Positions 1-60,075 of a stretch of DNA of 64,000 nt are shown here, in pieces. The notes under the pieces are model-generated. The model was not told the origin of the DNA and searched no databases. It worked only from the letters and a program-made list of their open reading frames with translations. A program made the translations under genes and the position numbers. Origin of the DNA: an uncultured Opitutia bacterium (GTDB lineage: Bacteria; Verrucomicrobiota; Verrucomicrobiia; Opitutales; Opitutaceae); the NCBI GenBank assembly GCA_903825285.1, contig CAIJZY010000001.1, positions 1 to 64,000 of the forward strand. Reading direction: 5' to 3'. Positions within the stretch are counted from its first letter, which is position 1. Each line of letters begins with the position of its first letter.

Positions 1-1614
1 GGCCTTGCAACTTTCAACGCTCAACTTTCAACCGCGGCGACGGGCGCGCAAGCGCCCGTCGCCGCCTGGCACGTCCGCAACAAGGCCGAGCACTGCATCA
101 ACGCCACCTTCCACTGCGTGCGCGAGTCCTGCTCCTACCTCGACCAGCTCGAGGCCCGCTGGGCCGCCAGCGGCCTGTCACGGTTCTACCGCTTCGAGGG
201 CCAGGCGCGCGACCTGGCGACCCTGCGCGCCGCCGGCCGCGACGCGCGCCTCTGCCCCTACGAGATCACACGCGCCGCGCTCGCGTTCAACGATCTCTGG
301 ATCGGCGACTACAACTATGTCTTCGCGCCGCGGAACCGCTCGTTGTTCTACCAGCAGCCGGGCTTCGATCCCGCGCGCACGCTGCTGCTGATCGACGAGG
401 CCCACAACCTGCCCGCCCGCGTGGCCGACGCCCATTCGCACGCCGCGCGGGCGGACGACGCCCGCGCCGTCCTGGCGGAGCTCGACCATATCGGCGCGCC
501 CGTCGCCCTGAGCCGCGCCTGGGAAAGCTGGACCCGGCTCCTCGGCGCGCTGCGGCCGGTCGACGCGCTCGACCCGGCGATGGAGGCGGATCTCGCCGAC
601 ACGCTCGACCAGGTCGCCACGCGCGTGGCCGCGGCGCCGCTTGATTTTGCCGCGCTCGGGCCCCACGGCAGCGAGCAGCTCTGGCAGGTGCAGCAGCTCG
701 CCGAGTGGCTCGCCGACGGCCGCCTCCGGAAGCTGCTGTGGTGCCCGCGCGCCGGCGAGCTCGCGTTCACCTGCCTGGATGCCGCGGACGCCATCGGCGC
801 CACGCTTCGCGAGTACGGCGGCGTGGTCCTGGCCAGCGCCACGCTCTCGCCCACCGCGGACTTCGCGCAGGCCTGCGGATTGCCGGCGGAGGCCGGACTG
901 GTGACCAGCGCCGCCGCCCCCGGTCCGGCCCTCGCGCCCATGCACGTCGTCGCCCGCACGCCCTGGCGCGACGGCGCATACAACGTCGCGTTCGACGCGC
1001 GCGTGGACACCACGTTCCAGCACCGCTCGCGTCACTTCGCCACGACCGCCGCGACCGTGGCCGCGCTGCAGTCCGCGGCGCGCGGGGCGGTCGCGGTCTT
1101 CTTCCCGTCCTACGCCTACGCCGAGGCGATCGCCGCCGAGCTCGAGCGGGCCGCGCCGCTGCGCGTGGCGCTGCAGCCCCGGTTGCACGACCTCGCGGCG
1201 CAGGCCGCCTGGGTTGAGGAGTCGCTGGCGTTCGCCGACGCGCTCTTCCTCGTGCTCGGCTCGAGCTTCGCCGAGAGCATCGACGTGCTCGGCGGTCGTG
1301 TGACCCACGCCATGGTGGTCGGGCCCGCGCTGCCCGAGGTCAACGCCGTGCAGCGCGCGCGCCTCGCGAAATTTTCCCATCTCGGACGCGCCGAAGCCTT
1401 CCGCCTCGTCTACCAAATTTTAGGTATGACCAAGGTAAACCAGGCGCTCGGCCGCCTGGTGCGCGCGCCCGGCCAGCGGGCCCGGGTCATCCTGCACTGT
1501 CAGCGCTTCCTCGAGCCCGCTTACGCCCGACTTTTAGCTCCAGAATACCAGCTGGGAACCAATCTGCTGGACGACGCCGATCTCACGCGCTGGCTCGCCG
1601 ACACCGGCCCGTAA
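1..1614 (+). CDS. ATP-dependent DNA helicase, DinG/XPD-like, 5'-truncated by window edge
   Basis: The frame is open from base 1 to the TAA at 1612-1614, so the gene begins upstream; 537 residues are visible. Cysteines at fragment residues 32/39, 44 and 85 resemble the iron-sulfur cluster ligands of the XPD/DinG superfamily-2 helicases. A DEAH box (IDEAHN) follows at about 132-135, and a QxxGRxxR motif VI (QALGRLVRAPG) lies near the C-terminus. The Walker A motif would be upstream. Family role: 5'-3' unwinding of DNA in repair or replication-conflict resolution. The first 20 visible residues are encoded by a CAACTTTCAAC-type repeat and a perfect hairpin (5-63), so this part may be an in-frame insertion. 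Helicase class is firm; the exact subfamily is less so. Confidence 0.85.
   Translation, partial: GLATFNAQLSTAATGAQAPVAAWHVRNKAEHCINATFHCVRESCSYLDQLEARWAASGLSRFYRFEGQARDLATLRAAGRDARLCPYEITRAALAFNDLWIGDYNYVFAPRNRSLFYQQPGFDPARTLLLIDEAHNLPARVADAHSHAARADDARAVLAELDHIGAPVALSRAWESWTRLLGALRPVDALDPAMEADLADTLDQVATRVAAAPLDFAALGPHGSEQLWQVQQLAEWLADGRLRKLLWCPRAGELAFTCLDAADAIGATLREYGGVVLASATLSPTADFAQACGLPAEAGLVTSAAAPGPALAPMHVVARTPWRDGAYNVAFDARVDTTFQHRSRHFATTAATVAALQSAARGAVAVFFPSYAYAEAIAAELERAAPLRVALQPRLHDLAAQAAWVEESLAFADALFLVLGSSFAESIDVLGGRVTHAMVVGPALPEVNAVQRARLAKFSHLGRAEAFRLVYQILGMTKVNQALGRLVRAPGQRARVILHCQRFLEPAYARLLAPEYQLGTNLLDDADLTRWLADTGP
5..63. repeat. Word repeat plus perfect 12-bp hairpin inside helicase frame
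   Basis: Bases 5-33 are a stutter of CAACTTTCAAC-like words. Bases 36-47 and 52-63 are perfect inverted arms (GGCGACGGGCGC) around a GCAA loop. The stretch stays in frame with the helicase. Similar CTCAACTTTCAAC words occur at 29161-29188 just before thrS. Confidence 0.6.
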
Positions 1615-1785: not shown

Positions 1786-4700
1786 GTGAAATCTTCACTG
1801 CTCCGATTGCTCGCTCTATTCCTGCTGCTTGGCACGTCCGCGATCGCGGCGCCGGGCACGACGTTCACCGCCAGGGAAATCGCCCAAGGTTTCCGCGACA
1901 CGGTGATTCTCGCCAAGCCCCGTGTCACCCATCGCGCCACCGTGGACGCCGCCGAGGCCGCCGAGGGCCTGCATGTGCGGCGGAAGTTCGACCAGGTCGC
2001 CGACCTGCGCGTGCTGGACGTCAACGGCACGGAGTCCGTGACCAGCGCGATCACCCGCCTGCGCGCCACGGGCCGCTATGAATATGTCGAGCCCGACTAC
2101 ATCGTCTACGCCACCGCCACCACGCCCAATGACACCAATTTCGCCGCCTACCAGTGGGCGCTGAACAATACCGGCTCGAACTATCCCGGCGGCGGCACCG
2201 CGGGTGCGGACATCCACGCGGTGACCGCCTGGGACACGACCCATGATGCCTCCGGCGTGATCGTGGCCGTGATCGACAGCGGCGTCCGCCTCACGCACGA
2301 GGACCTCGTGGCCAACCTCTGGACCAACGGCAGCGGCCAGCACGGCGCCTCCTTCATCAGCGGCAACGGCACGCAGACCGACACCATCCCCAACGACACC
2401 GAGGTCGGCCACGGCTCCCATGTGTCCGGGATCATCGGCGCCGCCGGCAACAACGGCAAGGGCATCACCGGCGTTGCCTGGACCGTCCAGCTGATGGAGC
2501 TGCGGTTCCTCCACGGCGCCAACGGCAGCGGCTCCATCTCTGACGCCATCGGCTGCATCAACTACGCCATCACCAATCACGCCAACATCATCAACGCGAG
2601 CTACGGCAGCCCCGCCTCCTCGAGCGCCGAATACGACGCCATCAACGCCGCCGGCGTCGCCGGCATCATCTTTGTCTGCGCCGCGGGCAACGACACCGTG
2701 AGCGTGGACAAGGGCAACACCTACCCCGCGGGCTATGGCCTCGACAACATCGTCGGCGTCGCCGCGACCACCAACACCGACGCCCTCGCGAGCTACTCCA
2801 ACTTCGGCCCCGGCACGGTCGACCTGGCCGCGCCCGGCAGCTCGGTCTACTCGTGCGGCATCAACGCGGACAACTACTACTTCGCCGCCAGCGGCACCTC
2901 GATGGCGTCGCCGCATGTCGCCGGCGCGCTGGCCCTGCTCAAGGCGAAGTTTCCCGCCGACACCTACCGGCAGCTGATCAACCGCATGCTCCGCTCCGTG
3001 ACGCCGGTCGCCGGACTCGTCGGCAGCGTCCAGTCCGGCGGCCGCCTCAACCTCGCCGCCGCCCTCACCAGCACCGACAGGCGGCCGTTCAACGACGACT
3101 TCGCCAGCCGCGCCGTGCTCGGCAGCATCTCCAATGTCCACATCCGGTCCAACAATGCCGACGCCACCGCCGAGAGCGGCGAGCCCAGCATTGCGGGCGT
3201 CGCCCCGTCGAACACGCTGTGGTGGAGCTGGACCGCCCCGGCCACCGCCAACGTCACGTTCAACACCTCCGGCAGTTCCTATGACACCACGCTGGCGATC
3301 TACACCGGCACCAGCCTCGCCTCCCTGGTCCCGGTCGCGGCCAACGACGACGACACCGTCCATTCCAAGAACACGAGCCTGATCACCGTCGGCGTCACCG
3401 CCGGCACCACCTACCAGATCGCCATCTCGCGCAAGAGCGGCACCGCCGGAGTCACCCTGCTCTCCATTGGCGTGATCCCGAACAACGACGACTTCGCCAA
3501 CGCCCAGCTCGTCACCGGCTCCACCTTCAGCCTCAGCGCCACCACGCTCAACGCCGGCACGGAGACCGGCGAGCCCGACGCGACCTCGACCAGCGGCTAC
3601 ACGCCCTACGGCGCCCACCATACCGTGTGGTACAAGTGGGTCGCCCCGTCCACCGCCACCTACTCGCTCTTTGCCTACAGCCCGCTCGTGGACATGCTCG
3701 CCGGAGTCTACACGGGCAGCTCCGTCTCCGCACTCACGAAGGTCGCTTGGAACGATGACGCCGCCGCCCGAATTTCCACCGGCGCCATCAACAGCAGCAG
3801 CCTGGTGCCGTTCTCCGCCACGGCGGGCACGACCTATTACTTCCAGATCGACTCCACCAACGTGGATCCCTTGGGCGGCGACTTCACGCTGTCCCTCTGC
3901 CTGCCCGCCTGGCAGTTCCCGACCTACGGCGGCATCCTGTCGTCGCCGGCCGCCGGCAGCGACGGCACCATCTACATCGGCGCGGGCACGTCCCTCACCG
4001 ACCAGATCCTCACCAGCGGCTATCCGGAGAACAGCCTCTACGCGCTGAACTCCAACGGCACGAAGAAGTGGAGCTACGCCACGGGCAGCCCGGTGGAGCT
4101 CGCCTCGCCGGCCGTCGGCAATGACGGCAACGTCTACATCGGCTCGGGCGACAAGAAGCTCTACGCGCTGACCGCGAGCACGGGCGCGCTCAAGTGGACC
4201 TACACGGCCACAACCGCGATCATCTCGGCGCCGGCCATCGCGTCCGACGGCACGATCTACTTCCGCGACGACACCACGCTCTACGCGCTCACCAACAACG
4301 GCACCAGCGCGACCCTCAAGTGGAGCTTCGCCCTCGCCGGCGCCACGTACGGCTCGCCCGCGATTGCCAACGACGGCACGGTCTATGTCGGCGCCACCGG
4401 CGGCAACTTCTACGCGGTCAACCCCTCCGGCACGCAGAAGTGGAAATTCACCGCCAACGGGGACATCTACACCGCGCCCGCCATCGCGAGCGACGGCACC
4501 GTCTACCTCGCCACGCTCAACGGCTACGTCTACGCCTTGAATCCCAACGGCACGCAGAAGTGGGTGTGGATCCTCCCGAGCTACAGCATCACGTCCTCCC
4601 CGGTCCTCGCCCCCGACGGCACGGTTTATTTCGGTGCGTACGACCACAAGCTCCACGCGCTCTCCAGCAGCGGCACGGAAAAGTGGTCCTGCCTGCTGGG

Positions 4701-6069
4701 CGACGAGGTGCGCGCCGCCACTCCCGCGGTCGGCAACGACGGCAGCATCTACATCCCGGCGTACGACGGCCGGGTCTATGTCGTCAGCGCCGCCGGCGCG
4801 GTCGTGCGCAGCTATGCCACCGCCGGCCTCATCCGCTCGTCGCCGATGATCGCGAACGGCCAGCTCATCGTCGGCAGCTCCGACAGCCTGGTGTACGCGT
4901 TCGCCCTCGACCCGGTGTCCGACCAGAGCCCCGCGAACTCCGCCTGGCCGGTGTACCAGCACAACCAGCGCCACGACGGCCAGTACACGGACAACGTCAT
5001 CACCATCACCGTAGCCCCGCTCGGCACGTCCGTCGCCATCGGCGGCACCATAAACTTGAGCGTGACCGCGACCGGCCCCGGCACGTTCTCCTACCAGTGG
5101 TACAAGGACGGCGTGGCCATCAGCGGCGCCACCAGCTCCACCTACACCAAGACCAACGCCCAGGCCTCCGACTCCGGCTCCTATACCGTAAGGATCACCA
5201 GCACGTCCGGCGCCACCACCACGTCCGGCGCCGCCACCGTGACCGTGGCCGCGGGCTCGCTCGGCAAGCTGTCCGCCCTGTCCGCGCGCGCCAGCATCGG
5301 CACGGGCAACAACGTGCTCATCGCCGGCTTCGTCATCGCCGGCGGCACCAAGTCCGTGATCGTCCGGGGCATCGGGCCCAACCTGTCCTCGCAGCTCTCC
5401 TCGGGTTACTTGCCCGACCCCACGCTCGAGATCTACGACGCCGGTGCCGTGAACTACACCTACTCCAACTCGTTCTGGGGCGGATCGGCCACGCTGATCA
5501 ACGCCTTCACGGCCGTCGGCGCCCAGGCTATCAACAACGGCTCATCGCATGACGACGCCCTGCTGCTCTCGCTCTCCGGCGTGCACACCGCCGTCGTGCG
5601 GGGCCAGAGCGGCGACACGGGTGTCGCCCTCGCCGAGGTGTTCGACGCCGACGCCGCCAACGCCCCGAGCCACCTCACGGCCATCTCCGCGCGGGCCAAC
5701 GTGGGCACGGGCAACGACGTGCTCATCGCCGGCTTCGTCATCACCGGCTCAGTCAACAAGAGCGTGCTGATCCGCGGCCTCGGCCCGGCGCTCACCGCGC
5801 AGGGCGTCACCTCCGGCTACCTGCCCGATCCGCGGGTGGAGATTTATCCGGCCGGCTCGTCCACCTACACGTACGCCAACCAGAAATGGGGCGGCACTGC
5901 GCAGCTCCTCGCCGCGTTCAACGCGACGGGCGCGAGCCCGATTGCCGACACGAACTCGAACGATGCCGCGCTGCTCCTCTCGCTCCCGCCCGGTGCCTAC
6001 ACCGCCATCCTGAAGAGCGCCAGCGGCGCCACCGGCGTCGGCCTGGTCGAGGTCTACGAGATGCCGTGA
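1786..6069 (+). CDS. Secreted S8 subtilisin-like protease with PPC-like, PQQ-like propeller and Ig-like domains
   Basis: Secreted serine endopeptidase of 1427 residues. I start at GTG 1786 because it directly precedes a signal peptide (MKSSLLRLLALFLLLGTSA, cleavage after AIAA); an upstream ATG at 1684 would bury it. A fervidolysin-like prodomain spans about 25-115. The catalytic triad is D164 (VIDSG), H209 (GHGSH) and S372 (GTSMASPH). Two pre-peptidase C-terminal-like beta domains follow (about 435-570 and 570-705), then 7-8 PQQ-like propeller repeats (about 705-1065, each with DGTVY and L-Y-AL), an Ig-like domain (1070-1158) and two homologous C-terminal modules (about 1160-1290 and 1295-1427) starting LSARA and with GFVI and RGxGP. 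Substrate is unknown; the propeller and tail modules suggest surface or matrix binding. It converges on the ABC permease gene at 6094. Confidence 0.9.
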   Translation: MKSSLLRLLALFLLLGTSAIAAPGTTFTAREIAQGFRDTVILAKPRVTHRATVDAAEAAEGLHVRRKFDQVADLRVLDVNGTESVTSAITRLRATGRYEYVEPDYIVYATATTPNDTNFAAYQWALNNTGSNYPGGGTAGADIHAVTAWDTTHDASGVIVAVIDSGVRLTHEDLVANLWTNGSGQHGASFISGNGTQTDTIPNDTEVGHGSHVSGIIGAAGNNGKGITGVAWTVQLMELRFLHGANGSGSISDAIGCINYAITNHANIINASYGSPASSSAEYDAINAAGVAGIIFVCAAGNDTVSVDKGNTYPAGYGLDNIVGVAATTNTDALASYSNFGPGTVDLAAPGSSVYSCGINADNYYFAASGTSMASPHVAGALALLKAKFPADTYRQLINRMLRSVTPVAGLVGSVQSGGRLNLAAALTSTDRRPFNDDFASRAVLGSISNVHIRSNNADATAESGEPSIAGVAPSNTLWWSWTAPATANVTFNTSGSSYDTTLAIYTGTSLASLVPVAANDDDTVHSKNTSLITVGVTAGTTYQIAISRKSGTAGVTLLSIGVIPNNDDFANAQLVTGSTFSLSATTLNAGTETGEPDATSTSGYTPYGAHHTVWYKWVAPSTATYSLFAYSPLVDMLAGVYTGSSVSALTKVAWNDDAAARISTGAINSSSLVPFSATAGTTYYFQIDSTNVDPLGGDFTLSLCLPAWQFPTYGGILSSPAAGSDGTIYIGAGTSLTDQILTSGYPENSLYALNSNGTKKWSYATGSPVELASPAVGNDGNVYIGSGDKKLYALTASTGALKWTYTATTAIISAPAIASDGTIYFRDDTTLYALTNNGTSATLKWSFALAGATYGSPAIANDGTVYVGATGGNFYAVNPSGTQKWKFTANGDIYTAPAIASDGTVYLATLNGYVYALNPNGTQKWVWILPSYSITSSPVLAPDGTVYFGAYDHKLHALSSSGTEKWSCLLGDEVRAATPAVGNDGSIYIPAYDGRVYVVSAAGAVVRSYATAGLIRSSPMIANGQLIVGSSDSLVYAFALDPVSDQSPANSAWPVYQHNQRHDGQYTDNVITITVAPLGTSVAIGGTINLSVTATGPGTFSYQWYKDGVAISGATSSTYTKTNAQASDSGSYTVRITSTSGATTTSGAATVTVAAGSLGKLSALSARASIGTGNNVLIAGFVIAGGTKSVIVRGIGPNLSSQLSSGYLPDPTLEIYDAGAVNYTYSNSFWGGSATLINAFTAVGAQAINNGSSHDDALLLSLSGVHTAVVRGQSGDTGVALAEVFDADAANAPSHLTAISARANVGTGNDVLIAGFVITGSVNKSVLIRGLGPALTAQGVTSGYLPDPRVEIYPAGSSTYTYANQKWGGTAQLLAAFNATGASPIADTNSNDAALLLSLPPGAYTAILKSASGATGVGLVEVYEMP

Positions 6070-19385: not shown

Positions 19386-19470
19386 TGGTGCTCGGGACAG
19401 GACTCGAACCTGCACGCCTTACGGCACACGCCCCTCAAACGTGTGTGTCTACCAATTCCACCACCCGAGC
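19386..19470 (-). tRNA. tRNA-Leu (anticodon GAG)
   Basis: The minus strand folds into a class-II-length tRNA. The acceptor stem pairs GCTCGGG with CCCGAGC, the D region is TGGTGGAATTGGTAGACAC, the anticodon stem is CACGT/GCGTG around loop TTGAGGG, giving GAG, then a short variable arm (TGCCGTAAGGCG) and a T arm CAGGTTCGAGTCCTG. The CCA end is encoded (TGG at 19386-19388 on the plus strand). Reads CUC and CUU. Confidence 0.95.
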
Positions 19471-23710: not shown

Positions 23711-23767
23711 GGACGCCGGCGTCTCCGACCTGCGCTCCGTCCCCGTCGGTCCCCGGTGAGTTGCTTG

Positions 23768-23802
23768 GAGGTTGAATGTTGAGGGTTGAGCGTTGAGCGT
23801 TC
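23768..23802. repeat. Word repeat, GTTGAG family
   Basis: A stutter of GGTTGAATGTTGAGGGTTGA and GCGTTGAGCGTT just upstream of the second permease gene. It is the complement of the CTCAAC words at 5-33, 29161-29188 and 32401-32452. Only one arm is obvious here. Confidence 0.5.
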
Positions 23803-29160: not shown

Positions 29161-29188
29161 ACCTCTCAACCTTCAACTTTCAACTCCC
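29161..29188. repeat. Word repeat, CTCAACTTTCAAC family
   Basis: ACCTCTCAACCTTCAACTTT followed by CAACTCC fills most of the spacer between cysS and thrS, ending 4 bases before the thrS ATG. Same vocabulary as 5-33. Confidence 0.5.
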
Positions 29189-35141: not shown

Positions 35142-36929
35142 TTACTCCGGCATCACCGTCTGGATGTGCAGCTCCTTGAGCTGCTTCGCAGTGACCGGGG
35201 TCGGGCTCTGCGCCATGAGGTCCTGGCCCTTCTGGGTCTTGGGGAAGGCGATGACGTCGCGGATGCTCGTCGTGCCGCAGAGCAGCGCGACCATGCGGTC
35301 GAGGCCGAAGGCGATGCCGCCGTGCGGCGGCGCACCGTAGGTGAAGGCCTTGAGCATGTAGCCGAAGCGGCTCTCGACGACGTCCGCCGGGATCTTCAGC
35401 ACGTCCTCGAAGACCTTCTTCTGCAGCGCGGGCTGGTGAATCCGGATCGAGCCGCCGCCGAGCTCCATGCCGTTCAGCACGACATCGTAGTGCTGGCCGC
35501 GGACCTTCTTCGGGTCGGAATCGAGGAACGCCGCGTCCGCCTCCACCGGCGCGGTGAAGGGATGGTGCGTCGCCACGTAGCGGTTCTCCGCCTCGTCATA
35601 GCTCATCAGCGGGAAATCCACCACCCACAGGAAGCGCCAGTCGTCGGGGCGCAGGGTCAGCTTGCCGCGCTTCACCAGCAGCGCCGCCGCCTCGAGCCGC
35701 AGGCGGCCGAGGATCGCGCAGGCCTTCTCCCACGGCGCCGCCGCGAAGAACACGATGTCGCCGTCGGCCAGGCCCAGCCGGGTCGTGAGCTCCGCCTTCT
35801 CCGCGTCGGAGAAGAATTTCACGATCGGCGACTTCCACTCGCCACCCTCGATCTTGATGAACGCGAGGCCCTTCGCGCCGAGCGACTTCGCGATCTCCTC
35901 GAGGCTCTTGGTCTCGCCCTGCGTGAGGTCGGCGAGGCCCTTGGCGTTGAGCGCCTTGACCACGCCACCGTCGGCGACGGTGGAGGCGAAGACCTTGAAC
36001 GAGGACTTCCGGAAGGTCTCCGAGAAGTCCACCAGCTCCAGCGCGAAGCGCACGTCGGGCTTGTCCACGCCGTAGCGGTTCATCGCGTCGTGGAACGCCA
36101 GCCGCGGGAACGGCGTGGGCAGGTCGTGGTTCAGCACGTCCTTCCACACCTTCTTCAGCATGCCCTCGAACAGCGCGTAGATGCCCTCGCGGTCGATGAA
36201 CGACGCCTCGACGTCCACCTGCGTGAACTCCATCTGGCGGTCCGCGCGCAGGTCCTCGTCGCGGAAGCAGCGCGCGATCTGGAAATACTTCTCCACGCCG
36301 GCGACCATCAGGATCTGCTTGAACTGCTGGGGCGACTGCGAGAGCGCGTAGAACTGGCCCGGGTGGATGCGCGACGGCACGAGGTACTCGCGCGCGCCCT
36401 CGGGCGTGCTCTTGAACAGCGCCGGGGTCTCCACCTCGATGAATTCCTGCGCGTCAAAGTAGTCGCGGATCGACTTCGAGACCCGGTGCCGCACCTGCAG
36501 GTTCTTGCGCATCTTCGGGCGGCGCAGGTCGAGGTAGCGGTAGGTGAGGCGGAGGTCCTCGTTGACCTTGTCGCCGCCGGCGTCGTCGAGCGGGAACGGC
36601 GGCGTCTCCGAGACGTTGAGGATCTCCAGGGTGCTGGCCGCGATCTCGACCTCGCCGGTGGGCAGCGAGGGGTTCACGGTGCCCTCGGGCCGCGGCTCGA
36701 CCAGGCCGGCGACGGCGATGACCGACTCCGGCTTGAGGTGCGCCGCGCGGGTGCCGAGCTCGGCGTTGTCCTGCGGGTCGAACTTCACCTGCGTGATGCC
36801 CTTCCGGTCGCGCAGGTCGATGAAGATGATGCCGCCATGGTCGCGGATGGAGTCGACCCAGCCTACCAGCGCGGCTTGGGAGCCGAGGTTAGCGGAGGTC
36901 AGCTGGGCGCAATGATGGGTGCGTTTCAT
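35142..36929 (-). CDS. aspS: Aspartyl-tRNA synthetase, bacterial type, likely non-discriminating
   Basis: 595 residues, class-II synthetase with N-terminal OB fold, catalytic core and inserted GAD domain (about 300-420), typical of bacterial AspRS. Motif 2 is FRDEDLRADRQMEFTQVD and motif 3 GIAFGLDRMVALLCG. H31 (IRDHGG) and G83 (RPEGTVN) match the His and Gly reported for non-discriminating Pseudomonas AspRS, where discriminating enzymes have Leu and Lys. If so it also charges tRNA-Asn, requiring GatCAB. That property is inference. Confidence 0.95.
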   Translation of the reverse strand: MKRTHHCAQLTSANLGSQAALVGWVDSIRDHGGIIFIDLRDRKGITQVKFDPQDNAELGTRAAHLKPESVIAVAGLVEPRPEGTVNPSLPTGEVEIAASTLEILNVSETPPFPLDDAGGDKVNEDLRLTYRYLDLRRPKMRKNLQVRHRVSKSIRDYFDAQEFIEVETPALFKSTPEGAREYLVPSRIHPGQFYALSQSPQQFKQILMVAGVEKYFQIARCFRDEDLRADRQMEFTQVDVEASFIDREGIYALFEGMLKKVWKDVLNHDLPTPFPRLAFHDAMNRYGVDKPDVRFALELVDFSETFRKSSFKVFASTVADGGVVKALNAKGLADLTQGETKSLEEIAKSLGAKGLAFIKIEGGEWKSPIVKFFSDAEKAELTTRLGLADGDIVFFAAAPWEKACAILGRLRLEAAALLVKRGKLTLRPDDWRFLWVVDFPLMSYDEAENRYVATHHPFTAPVEADAAFLDSDPKKVRGQHYDVVLNGMELGGGSIRIHQPALQKKVFEDVLKIPADVVESRFGYMLKAFTYGAPPHGGIAFGLDRMVALLCGTTSIRDVIAFPKTQKGQDLMAQSPTPVTAKQLKELHIQTVMPE

Positions 36930-37035: not shown

Positions 37036-37146
37036 ACGAACGTCGAACTTCGAACGCCCAACATCGAACGTCGAAGGATCGTCCCGCGGCGCGGCCGCGC
37101 TGGAGTCCACCTCGATGTTGGACGTTCGATGTTCGGCGTTCGCCCG
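37036..37146. repeat. Dispersed inverted word repeat with conserved core, copy A
   Basis: Arms of CGAACATCGAACGTC-like words (37036-37076 and 37112-37146) in opposite orientation flank a core. On the minus strand the core reads GTGGACTCCAGCGCGGCC then CGCGGGACGATCCTTCGA. Copy B at 57391-57496 has the same core and differently arranged arms. Confidence 0.8.
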
Positions 37147-37155
37147 CAGCCTTCC

Positions 37156-37323
37156 CTACCCGATCTCCTCCGCCATCTGCAGCAGCTGGCGCGCAAGCTC
37201 GCGCGCGGCGTCGGGTGTCAGGTCCACGGGATCGTCAAAGGTGGCCACGGCCTTCAGGCGAAGCAGCCCGGCGGAGGCGTCGAGTTCCAGGGTCAGGTCG
37301 CCATCGGCATCGGTGTAGGTCAT
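37156..37323 (-). CDS. Small protein of unknown function
   Basis: 55 residues from ATG 37323. It is acidic, with a beta-like first half (TLELDASAGLLRLKAVATF) and a helical second half (AARELARQLLQMAEEIG). The start overlaps the stop of the upstream secreted-protein gene by ATGA (37320-37323), the main support that it is real. No family recognised. Confidence 0.6.
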   Translation of the reverse strand: MTYTDADGDLTLELDASAGLLRLKAVATFDDPVDLTPDAARELARQLLQMAEEIG

Positions 37324-56339: not shown

Positions 56340-57320
56340 TTACGGTTTGTACTCCGACACCTTGATCCGGCCCGCGACGATGTCCGCGCGCGCCTGGTCA
56401 AGCCGCTGCTTCATCGTCGGGGTCAGGATGCCGCGGTTGTACTCGTCGTACGAGTAGTCCACGCCGTTCTCGGCGAGTCCGAGCGCGACCTGCCCGGCCC
56501 GCCACGTGCCCGACCGGGCGTCCGAGAACGCCTTGTAGACCGCGACGTCCACGCGTTTCACCGCCGAGGTGAGCACGCTGCCGGGATGGAGGTAATCCTG
56601 GTTGCTGTCGCAGCCGATGCTGAGCATCCCGGCGTCCTGCGCCGCCTGCATCACGCCGATCCCGGTGGCGCCGGCGGCATGGAAGACGACGTCGGCGCCG
56701 CGGCCGAACTGGCTGCGGGCCAGCTCGCCGCCCTTGGTCGGGTCGCCCCAGGCCGTGGGCGTGGTGCCGGTCATGTTCTGGAACACCTCGACCGTTGGGT
56801 TCACGTGGCGCGCGCCCTCAACGTAGCCGAGGGCGAACTTGCGGATGAGGGGGATGTCCATGCCACCCACGAAACCAATCTTGCCGGTCTTGGACGCGAG
56901 CGCGGCGGCCATGCCGCAGAGGAACGAGGACTCCTGCTCGCGGAAGTTGATCGACTGGACGTTGGGCAGGTCGACGACCGCGTCGATGATGGTGAACTTC
57001 ACCTCGGGGAACTGCCGGGCGACCTTCTCCACGGCCGAGGCCTGGGTGAAGCCGACGGCGACGATGATGGTGGCGCCGCGGCGGGCGAGCTGCGCCATGA
57101 TCTGCTCGCGCTGGGCGGCGTTGGTGATCTCGAACTCGCGGTAGGCGATGCCGGTGTCGGCCTTGAATTTCTGCGCGCCCTCGCTGGCCGACTGGTTGAA
57201 CGAGCGGTCGAATTTGCCGCCGAAGTCGTAGACGATCGCGGGCGAGAACTCGTTCGCGACACCCGCCGCCGCGGCGGCGAGACCGGCCAGGAACGCGAGG
57301 GAAAAACGGGAAAAGGACAT
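56340..57320 (-). CDS. BMP family ABC substrate-binding protein
   Basis: 326 residues from ATG 57320. A signal peptide (MSFSRFSLAFLAGLAAAAAG) exports it; there is no lipobox Cys, so it is periplasmic rather than a lipoprotein. The family hallmarks are YDFGGKFDRSFNQSASEG at the N-terminus and the GCDSNQDYL segment near residue 235. Known relatives (Med/PnrA, BmpA) bind nucleosides. First gene of the transporter operon. Upstream spacer holds repeat copy B. Confidence 0.93.
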   Translation of the reverse strand: MSFSRFSLAFLAGLAAAAAGVANEFSPAIVYDFGGKFDRSFNQSASEGAQKFKADTGIAYREFEITNAAQREQIMAQLARRGATIIVAVGFTQASAVEKVARQFPEVKFTIIDAVVDLPNVQSINFREQESSFLCGMAAALASKTGKIGFVGGMDIPLIRKFALGYVEGARHVNPTVEVFQNMTGTTPTAWGDPTKGGELARSQFGRGADVVFHAAGATGIGVMQAAQDAGMLSIGCDSNQDYLHPGSVLTSAVKRVDVAVYKAFSDARSGTWRAGQVALGLAENGVDYSYDEYNRGILTPTMKQRLDQARADIVAGRIKVSEYKP

Positions 57321-57390: not shown

Positions 57391-57496
57391 GCGAACGCCC
57401 AACGCCGAACATCGAAGTGAACTCCAGCGTGCGGCCATGCCGCGGACGATCCTTCGATGTTGGGCGTCCGGCGTTCGGCGTTGGGCGTGCGCCCGG
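57391..57496. repeat. Dispersed inverted word repeat with conserved core, copy B
   Basis: Left arm CGAACGCCCAACGCC plus GAACATCGAAG, core GTGAACTCCAGCGTGCGGCC then GCCGCGGACGATCCTTCGA, right arm GATGTTGGGCGTCCGGCG then TTCGGCGTTGGGCG. The core matches copy A (37036-37146, opposite strand) almost base for base; the arms use the same words in a different order. Confidence 0.8.
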
Positions 57497-57507: not shown

Positions 57508-60075
57508 CTACCCGATCCGCACCGGCGGCAGGGACCAGATCTGCTCGGCGTACTCGCGGATGGTGCGGTCGCTGGAGAATTTGCCCATGCGCGCGGTGTT
57601 GAGGATCGCCTTGCGCGCCCAGCCCGCCTGGTCGCGGTAGGCGGCGTCCACGCGCGCCTGCGCGTCGCTGTAGGCGCGGAAGTCCGCCAGCACCAGATAG
57701 GGGTCGCCGCCGGCCAGCAGGCTGTGGTGCACGAGGCTGAACGCGCCCGGCGCGCCCGGCGCGAAGTAGTCGCTGCCCAGCCAGTCGATCACGGCGCGCA
57801 GTTCCTCATCCGCGCGGTACAGGTCCCACGGGCTGTAGCCCCGGGCCCAGAGCGCCTCCACCTCGCCGACGTTGAGGCCGAAGATGAAGATGTTGTCGTC
57901 GCCGACCTCCTCGCGGATCTCGACGTTGGCGCCGTCGAGTGTGCCGATGGTGAGCGCGCCGTTGAGCGCGAGCTTCATGTTGCCCGTGCCCGACGCCTCC
58001 TTGCCGGCGGTCGAGATCTGTTCGGAGAGGTCAGCGGCGGGGATGATCTTCTCCGCGAGCGAGACGCGGTAGTTGGGGAGGAAGGCGACCTTGAGCTTCC
58101 CGCCGATGCGGGGGTCGGCGTTGATGCGCGCGCCGATGACGTTGATCGCGTAGATGATGTTCTTGGCGAGGTCGTAGCCCGGCGCGGCCTTGGCGGCGAA
58201 GACGAACACGCGCGGCACCACGTCGAGGTCGGGCCGCTGCAGCAGCCGGCGGTAGAGCGCGAGGATGTGCAGCAGGTTCAGGTGCTGCCGCTTGTACTCG
58301 TGGAGGCGCTTGATCTGGACGTCGAAGAGCGCGTCGGGCGAGACCTCGAGGCCGCACTCGGCCTGGATGACGGCGGCGAAGTCCACCTTGTTGGCGCGCT
58401 TGATGGCCATGAACTCGCGCTGGAAGGCGGGGTCGGCGGCGCGCTTTTCCAGGCCGCGGAGCAGGTCGAGGTCGCGGGGCCAGTCGGCCCGGCCGAGCGC
58501 GTGCGTGATCAGCGCGGCCAGCCGCGGGTTGCTCTTCAGGAGCCAGCGGCGCGGCGTGATGCCGTTGGTCTTGTTCTGGAAGCGGCCGGGGAACAGCGCG
58601 TCGAACTCGGGGAACAGGTGCTTCTTGAGCAGCTCGGTGTGCAGCGCGGCGACGCCGTTGACGGCGTGCGAGCCGGCCACGGCGAGGTTGGCCATGCGGA
58701 CCATCTTGTGGCCGTTCTCCTCGATGAGGGAGCACACGCGCTTCTTCTCGTTGTCGCCGGGCCACTTCGCCTCGACCGCGACGAGCAGGTGCGTGTTGAT
58801 GTCGTAGATGATCTGGAGGTGGCGCGGCAGCACGCGCTCGAAGAGCCCCACGCCCCACTTCTCGAGGGCCTCGGGCAGCAGCGTGTGGTTGGTGTAGGCG
58901 AAGGTCCGGGCGACCACCGCCCAGGCGGCGTCCCAGGCCATGCTTTCCTCGTCGAGGAGGATGCGCATCAGCTCGACCACGGCGATCGCCGGGTGCGTGT
59001 CGTTCAGCTGGATCGCGACCTTGTCGGCGAAGTTCGCCCAGCTGTTGCCCTCCTTGCGGAAATGGCGGCGCACGATGTCGCGCAGCGAGCAGGCCACGAA
59101 GAAATACTGCTGGGTCAGGCGCAGCTCCTTGCCGTTCTCGGTCTTGTCGTTCGGGTAAAGCACCTTCGAGACGGTCTCGCCGAGCGCCTGCTCCTGCACG
59201 GCCTCGACGTAGCCGCCGCGGTTGAAGGCCTCGAGGTCGAAGTCCTCCGAGGTCTTGGAGGCCCAGAGGCGGAGGATGTTGACGGTGTTGGTGCCGTAGC
59301 CCGCGGTGGGGATGTCGTGCGGCACGCCGACGAGGGTCTTGGTGTCGACCCAGCGCGGCCGGTAGTTGCCGCGGTCGTCGAAGACGTTCTCCACGCGGCC
59401 GTAGAGGCGCACCTCCTGCGTGTACTCGGGGCGCACGACCTCCCAGGGCTCGCCGAAGCGGATCCAGTTGTCGGGATGCTCGACCTGCTGGCCGCCGACG
59501 AAGGTCTGCTTAAACAGGCCGAACTCGTAGTAGATGCCGTAGCCAAGCGCGGGGTAGTCCATCGTCGCGAGCGAATCGAGGAAGCACGCTGCCAGCCGGC
59601 CGAGGCCGCCGTTGCCGAGGCCCATGTCCATCTCCGACTCGCGGATCAGCTCAAAGTCCTGCCCGAGCGAGGTCAGCGCCGACTTGGCCGCGTCGAGCAG
59701 CCCGGTCGCGAGGAGGTTGTTGCCGAACAGCCGGCCCATGAGGTACTCGAGCGAGAAGTAGTACAGCCGGCGGACGTTCTGCTCATTGTGCACCGTCTGC
59801 GTCGCGATCATGCGCACGTGGATGGTGTCGCGCACGGCCAGCGCCGTCGCCACCCACCAGTCGCGCGGCGTGGCCGAGCCGGCATGGCGGGCGAGCGTGG
59901 ACACGAGGTGGCGCTGGATGAGCGAGCGCAGGGCGACCTCGGGCGAATCGGGGTGCGGCCGGGCCGTCTCGGCCGGGGCCGGCTTCGTCACCGGGGCCGG
60001 CGCGGGCGCCTTGGGCCGGGAGGCCGGAGCGCGAACCTGGGACTGGGTGGTCTTATTCTTGGCGGCGGGCGGCAT
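57508..60075 (-). CDS. glgP: Glycogen/starch/alpha-glucan phosphorylase
   Basis: 855 residues from ATG 60075. Releases glucose 1-phosphate from alpha-1,4-glucans. The PLP-binding Lys701 lies in [11 protein letters not shown], and the [15 protein letters not shown] segment near residue 125 is the family's N-terminal signature. A Pro/Ala/Lys-rich extension of about 45 residues precedes the fold. No glycogen synthase gene is in view. Confidence 0.95.

Follow-up and report, generated by a model that had tools for sequence, protein, structure and literature searches.

What are the two similar palindromes, copies A and B, that lie between genes in a 64,000-nucleotide stretch of DNA (the window) from an uncultured Opitutia bacterium, and what, if anything, do they do? 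The original prediction placed a shared core at both sites and described two dispersed copies with rearranged arms. Both copies were located there and the core is present in each (Table 1). On direct reading and parsing, copy A consists of five 7-bp words, a 41-bp core and four mirrored words; in copy B, read on the minus strand, a 42-bp core separates five words from three. The 55-aa ORF beside copy A has an ortholog in the same place, upstream of aspS, in several relatives (L016, L018–L020), and aspS places the relatives of the source genome among Opitutaceae MAGs. As RNA, both copies are predicted to form very stable hairpins (−64 to −75 kcal/mol, z −5.6 to −7.8), with the core of copy A folding as a predicted hairpin in its own right. 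Rfam 15 at the gathering score returned only a tRNA in the window (19389–19470) and nothing at copies A or B, nor did it match the phage loci or the other element loci described below.

Table 1. Positions and content of the repeat copies, their neighbours and related features; coordinates are those of the window unless a locus is named.
Feature	Position	Strand	Content or context	Basis
Copy A, whole	37038..37141
Copy A left arm	37038..37072	+	GAACGTC GAACTTC GAACGCC CAACATC GAACGTC (5 words)	read, parsed
Copy A core	37073..37113		GAAGGATCGTCCCGCGGC GCG GCCGCGCTGGAGTCCACCTC; inner hairpin CGCGGC/GCCGCG	read; alignment with 16 other copies; folding
Copy A right arm	37114..37141	-	minus-strand words GAACGCC GAACATC GAACGTC CAACATC (4 words)	read, parsed
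Copy B, whole	57393..57490	-
Copy B left arm	57456..57490	-	GCACGCC CAACGCC GAACGCC GGACGCC CAACATC	read, parsed
Copy B core	57414..57455		minus strand GAAGGATCGTCCGCGGC ATG GCCGCACGCTGGAGTTCACTTC	read, aligned
Copy B right arm	57393..57413	+	plus-strand words GAACGCC CAACGCC GAACATC	read, parsed
aspS (aspartate--tRNA ligase)	35142..36929	-	start 106 nt from copy A	NCBIfam TIGR00459, 734 bits (cut-off 374)
55-aa ORF	37156..37323	-	end 9 nt from copy A	gene call
Glycogen/starch phosphorylase	57508..60075	-	end 11 nt from copy B	TIGR02093, 1145 bits
BMP-family substrate-binding protein	56340..57320	-	start 70 nt from copy B	NF047927, below cut-off, family level only
Second-dialect heptad array	8..32	+	window edge
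Second-dialect single array	23764..23802	-	CAACNYT-type words; ends shortly before a start codon
Second-dialect heptad site	29167..29184
REP-like palindromes at Y1 genes	L010 1362-1430, 2640-2690; L011 1343-1363, 1924-1944
Phage contig G333			IMGVR_UViG_3300012347_000602; head protease, major head protein and head-tail adaptor in a row
Phage contig G334			IMGVR_UViG_3300012347_000612; terminase and portal
Phage contig G336			terminase, portal and head protease genes
Phage contig G337			IMGVR_UViG_3300033145_001804; terminase, portal, head protease, phage transposase and head morphogenesis gene

Copies A and B come from a family of dispersed, non-coding repeats in which two inverted rows of 7-bp words enclose a GC-rich core. 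The family comprises at least 37 dispersed hairpin-like repeats in the 3.74 Mb genome (62 contigs), a lower bound as copies were collected through searches. BLAST with copy A alone gave 51 matches in the genome and 36 copies were examined in context, one more (C41:70593) being seen but left out of that reading; dispersal within the genome, as originally proposed, is therefore strongly supported and the alternative of only two copies fails. In a full copy, up to five words make up one arm, and a second, mirrored arm follows the core hairpin of about 40 bp; approximately nine copies are solo or degenerate arms. The window contains 20 matches to the 7-bp arm pattern where 0.9 would be expected, and none of 100 dinucleotide shuffles reached 20; genome-wide the pattern gave 35/45 strand matches compared with 1/1 for the reversed control pattern.

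Searching the genome with the core showed that its exact long form is private to A and B. A looser version, GGATCGTCCCGCGGC nnn GCCGCGCGCTGGAATCCACTTCG, retains the inner hairpin and is alignable in about 17 copies, with other cores present in about half of the copies here and in most copies of the congener G008, hence the proposed conserved centre holds for part of the family only. The words follow the consensus S-R-A-C-R-Y-C (S-A/G-A-C-R-Y-C). Among 235 parsed words A3 is invariant, C4 occurs in 228 and C7 in 223, with variability concentrated at positions 1 (G/C), 2 (A/G), 5 (G/A) and 6 (C/T). Words also occupy ordered slots, the first being GAACGCC in 36 of 50 arms and the second GAACATC in 19 of 50, with C-initial words placed near the core. 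Arms were expected to carry the same words in a different order and number; gain and loss of words was indeed observed, but the order is not free, and arms differ through slot-by-slot substitution instead of shuffling. The proposed contrast between fast arms and a slow centre is blurred further, as the outermost words and the A3/C4/C7 scaffold are among the best-conserved letters. The genome also contains a second dialect (GAAAGTT, GAACGTT and CAACGCT words; L125–L131), arranged in palindromes or in single rows near start codons.

Selected hairpins should have arms which match best within one copy. This was not seen: arms of the same copy were no better matched than arms of different copies in word identity, duplex energy or longest perfect match, a result which holds in this genome (G000) and in the distantly related G218. 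Compensatory change was at or below shuffled levels in the 17-copy alignment, and the roughly 81–83% of cells that are paired are accounted for by the shared word scaffold alone. An RNA hairpin maintained by compensatory change was therefore unsupported in either possible arm register or in the core, and the absence of covariation counts against an RNA hairpin function of each copy, which would usually show it. Avoidance of perfect matches between arms, as an escape from palindrome processing, was also unsupported. The conserved or recognised unit appears to be the row of words, not the exact base pair, and the independence of the arms argues against the default view of such palindromes as selected RNA hairpins.

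Comparison with close relatives indicates how the family changes. Among 12 congeners searched, the first dialect occurs in numbers only in this genome and G008, and empty sites were found in relatives for both copy A (L016) and copy B (G010/L141). Around seven intergenic sites orthologous with G008 hold elements in both genomes, with flanks mostly 81–88% identical, against a fraction of one expected (a rough estimate from approximately 25 and 38 elements and 1500 intergenic regions). At nearly all of these sites the words, the word number and the core differ, so that the place is kept while the letters are replaced and homogenised within each genome; differing words between aligned flanks also agree with the fast-changing arms of the original prediction. 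Elements at orthologous sites were marginally more similar than non-orthologs (0.35 vs 0.29, p 0.05, n = 7), and GGACGCC fills slot 3 in 18 arms of G008 vs 8 here. Separately, the aspS site of G008 (L012, ~4600–5000) carries a palindrome of a further dialect, with CCAAACG-type words, enclosing a second palindrome (CCACGAAGGGCGCGAAG ... CTTCGTGGT).

Arms thus change word by word, each independently, under genome-specific dialects, and copying or slippage of whole words within and between arrays may spread and homogenise the copies. Replication slippage alone, generating local 7-bp microsatellites with inverted pairs from template switching and no dispersal, would yield the heptad unit, the variable word number and the changes at orthologous sites. 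It is highly improbable, however: without copying between loci, the slot order would not be fixed, dialects would not be shared and about 17 unlinked copies would not have a common core. Template switching also predicts arms more alike within a copy than between copies, which was not observed.

The position of the copies relative to genes was read from gene calls made with a caller retrained to exclude antisense ORFs. Nearly all copies (35 of 36) are intergenic, lying a median of 14 nt from a facing stop codon and about 69–70 nt from a facing start codon; of the 16 copies flanked by codirectional genes, 14 are closer to the stop than to the start. The preference for stops is not exclusive, because about 10 of the 36 copies, near the share expected from background, have divergent neighbours and no stop before them. 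Long GC-rich hairpins 5–30 nt past stop codons could be intrinsic (Rho-independent) terminators, but a T-rich tail follows only 2 of 33 copies, at the background rate of about 5%, no terminator-like site was found at copy A, and the 10 copies between divergent genes do not fit this role. Terminators of the U-tract type are mostly refuted, and we regard intrinsic termination as hardly credible for this family.

The reading we tentatively lean towards is a class of heptad-word repeats that is tolerated or used at the 3′ ends of genes and probably acts in RNA. In the short untranslated segment behind a gene, elements would be tolerated or put to use, and read-through from that gene would place the array and hairpin in a 3′-UTR. 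There they would most likely work through RNA, marking a transcript boundary or offering a site to an RNA-binding or ribosome-associated protein, and not as a U-tract terminator. Function of the hairpin itself is doubtful because covariation is absent and some copies lie between divergent genes, and copies may lie close to stops simply because insertions are tolerated there.

Similar word arrays occur just after stop codons in many related bacteria. The pattern SAACNYCSAACNYCSAAC was detected in 89 of 289 Verrucomicrobiota genomes, at up to hundreds of places in each and with few control matches. Its distribution is patchy, with genome-specific dialects (for example GAACACC, CAACTTC, GAACATC), and the distant examples are again palindromes. 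One Verrucomicrobiota contig (L341, G121 contig 72, 1178–3460) carries three near-identical arrays (CAACATC CAACATC CAACATT ...) within 2.3 kb, all in a single orientation and each in a similar sequence context.

BLAST with copy A found no plasmid or curated-phage homologs, and arrays in phages surfaced only through the word pattern in IMG/VR, where a longer version matched at least 120 stretches of contigs. Several array-bearing contigs are genuine tailed phages by PHROGs (Table 1). Phages G333, G334 and G337 (L326–L331) carry heptad arrays at many structural-gene junctions, mostly in sense orientation, with approximately 9–12 array sites per 36–40 kb compared with none or almost none in simulated sequence, a density roughly 25–30 times that of the bacterial genome studied here. 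All nine arrays of G337 are on the coding strand; most begin −2 to +10 nt relative to the end of a stop codon, and three supply the GA of a TGA stop. Among the usable IMG/VR matches listed, a sense-strand stop falls within −12 to +25 nt of 48 of the 124 single arrays, vs 18 with an antisense stop and 11.7 expected by chance. Gene calls of G338 and of parts of G333 and G334 look strand-inverted and were not relied upon. A further viral contig (L261, 10655–10964) contains around 35 heptads in a row (GTTCGGC, GTTCAGT), far above the usual five.

Relatives of the G333 head protein were found in 28 of 388 Verrucomicrobiota genomes, the best at 55–59% identity. Arrays occur in 16 of 26 genomes with a head protein of this type vs 73 of 263 without (p 0.0007, uncorrected for phylogeny). 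Most prophage relatives of this head protein had no array near the gene, and a relative in G211 has an array of another dialect. A contig with a phage major head gene in that genome (L346, G211 contig 267) bears arrays at 443 and 3400 in the dialect GAATTTT, GAATGTC.

A role at the RNA level is supported mainly by the sense bias of the phage arrays. This bias also bears on the proposal that each word is the site of a DNA-binding protein, the whole forming an inverted double array of operator, iteron or nucleoid-protein sites on double-stranded DNA. Fixed A3, C4 and C7 beside variable S1, R5 and Y6 resemble a degenerate recognition motif, and independent variation of inverted arms would suit such sites. 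Binding to double-stranded DNA does not, however, predict that most placed phage arrays lie in sense after stops, and the dialects differ greatly among genomes, which makes this proposal improbable.

A purely selfish, non-autonomous palindrome (MITE- or REPIN-like), moved by a transposase and without host function, would sit behind stops since insertion elsewhere harms promoters. The family is multicopy, intergenic and lineage-patchy (2 of 12 congeners), has empty sites in relatives, includes solo arms and degenerate copies and has spread into phages, all of which such an element would show. MITE-like inverted ends are also present, but no target duplication is visible in the diverged empty sites, the copies vary word by word, unlike the near-identical copies left by recent insertion, and sense orientation is favoured in phages. 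Mobilisation by a RAYT/Y1 transposase was rejected: none of the three Y1_Tnp genes in the genome has an element within 1.5 kb, and Y1_Tnp is lacking in the family-bearing G008 and present in eight congeners without the family. A non-exhaustive search found no autonomous parent or mobilising enzyme. Overall a purely selfish origin is somewhat unlikely, and it remains a serious rival to the preferred reading of 3′-end repeats acting in RNA.

A bolder extension, which we consider unlikely, is that heptad arrays are a genetic signal common to bacteria and phages, comprising about five sense words at stops that are read in RNA, with dialects that differ between lineages and match between phage and host. 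Each palindrome of this genome would then combine two such signals in a back-to-back arrangement, and conservation of words rather than base pairs would follow. If the word array is a signal, it represents a repeat class recognised by word content, with fast-changing letters and a stable place, found both in Verrucomicrobiota chromosomes and in tailed phages. If the array is purely selfish, then a palindrome family with whole-word turnover and no visible transposase has entered the structural operons of phages.

The 7-bp core of integron attC sites made these another candidate for comparison. No description of the word sequences reported here was found in the open-access literature searched, by term or by sequence string. 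The nearest functional resemblance is to the GGGNATC heptamers of Xanthomonas and Nostoc, whose intergenic arrays occur singly or in inverted pairs, usually lie no more than 50 bp from a stop and keep their position between species while repeat number varies (PMC4692102). The present family shares the 7-bp unit, the inverted pairs, the intergenic location near stops, the kept position and the variable number. GGGNATC units, however, are G-rich, near-identical and G-quadruplex-forming (PMC4692102), whereas SRACRYC words have no G-tract per word on either strand and the family has a degenerate lexicon, a conserved hairpin core, genome-wise dialects and occurrence in phages. TAACTGA heptamers of Beggiatoaceae, Cyanobacteria and Bacteroidetes consist of one invariant word, almost never inverted, just upstream of starts (PMC4679880); the unit length and patchiness of the Beggiatoaceae repeats are shared, but our words are variable, their arms are inverted (palindromic in the bacterial genome) and they lie nearer stops.

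REP and BIME sequences (GTAG and CGTC superfamilies) are dispersed intergenic palindromes often located downstream of genes, including in Opitutus terrae (PMC3733652), and are similar in palindromy and location. REPs measure 20–40 bp with a terminal unpaired GTAG or CGTC tag, the GTAG types accompanying RAYT genes (PMC3733652), whereas our element is heptad-armed, approximately 100–120 bp long and has no RAYT link. CGTC precedes the inner stem in about half of the aligned cores; however, the stem here measures 6 bp, closes a 3-nt loop and lies inside a palindrome of about 110 bp, in contrast to the 8–9 bp stems and 4–5 nt loops of CGTC-type REPs (PMC3733652). Classic short REP-like palindromes do occur in the genome (GTGGGAGCGAGCTTGCTCGCGAC; GGCGGGGTCGGCGACCCCGCC), on either side of two Y1 transposase genes, but they have no relation to the heptad family. 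As the G-tracts of heptamer repeats are lacking, the RAYT link fails and the defining features of TAACTGA repeats and REPs do not apply, the elements represented by copies A and B are therefore dispersed repeats of the heptameric kind which fall outside any named family.
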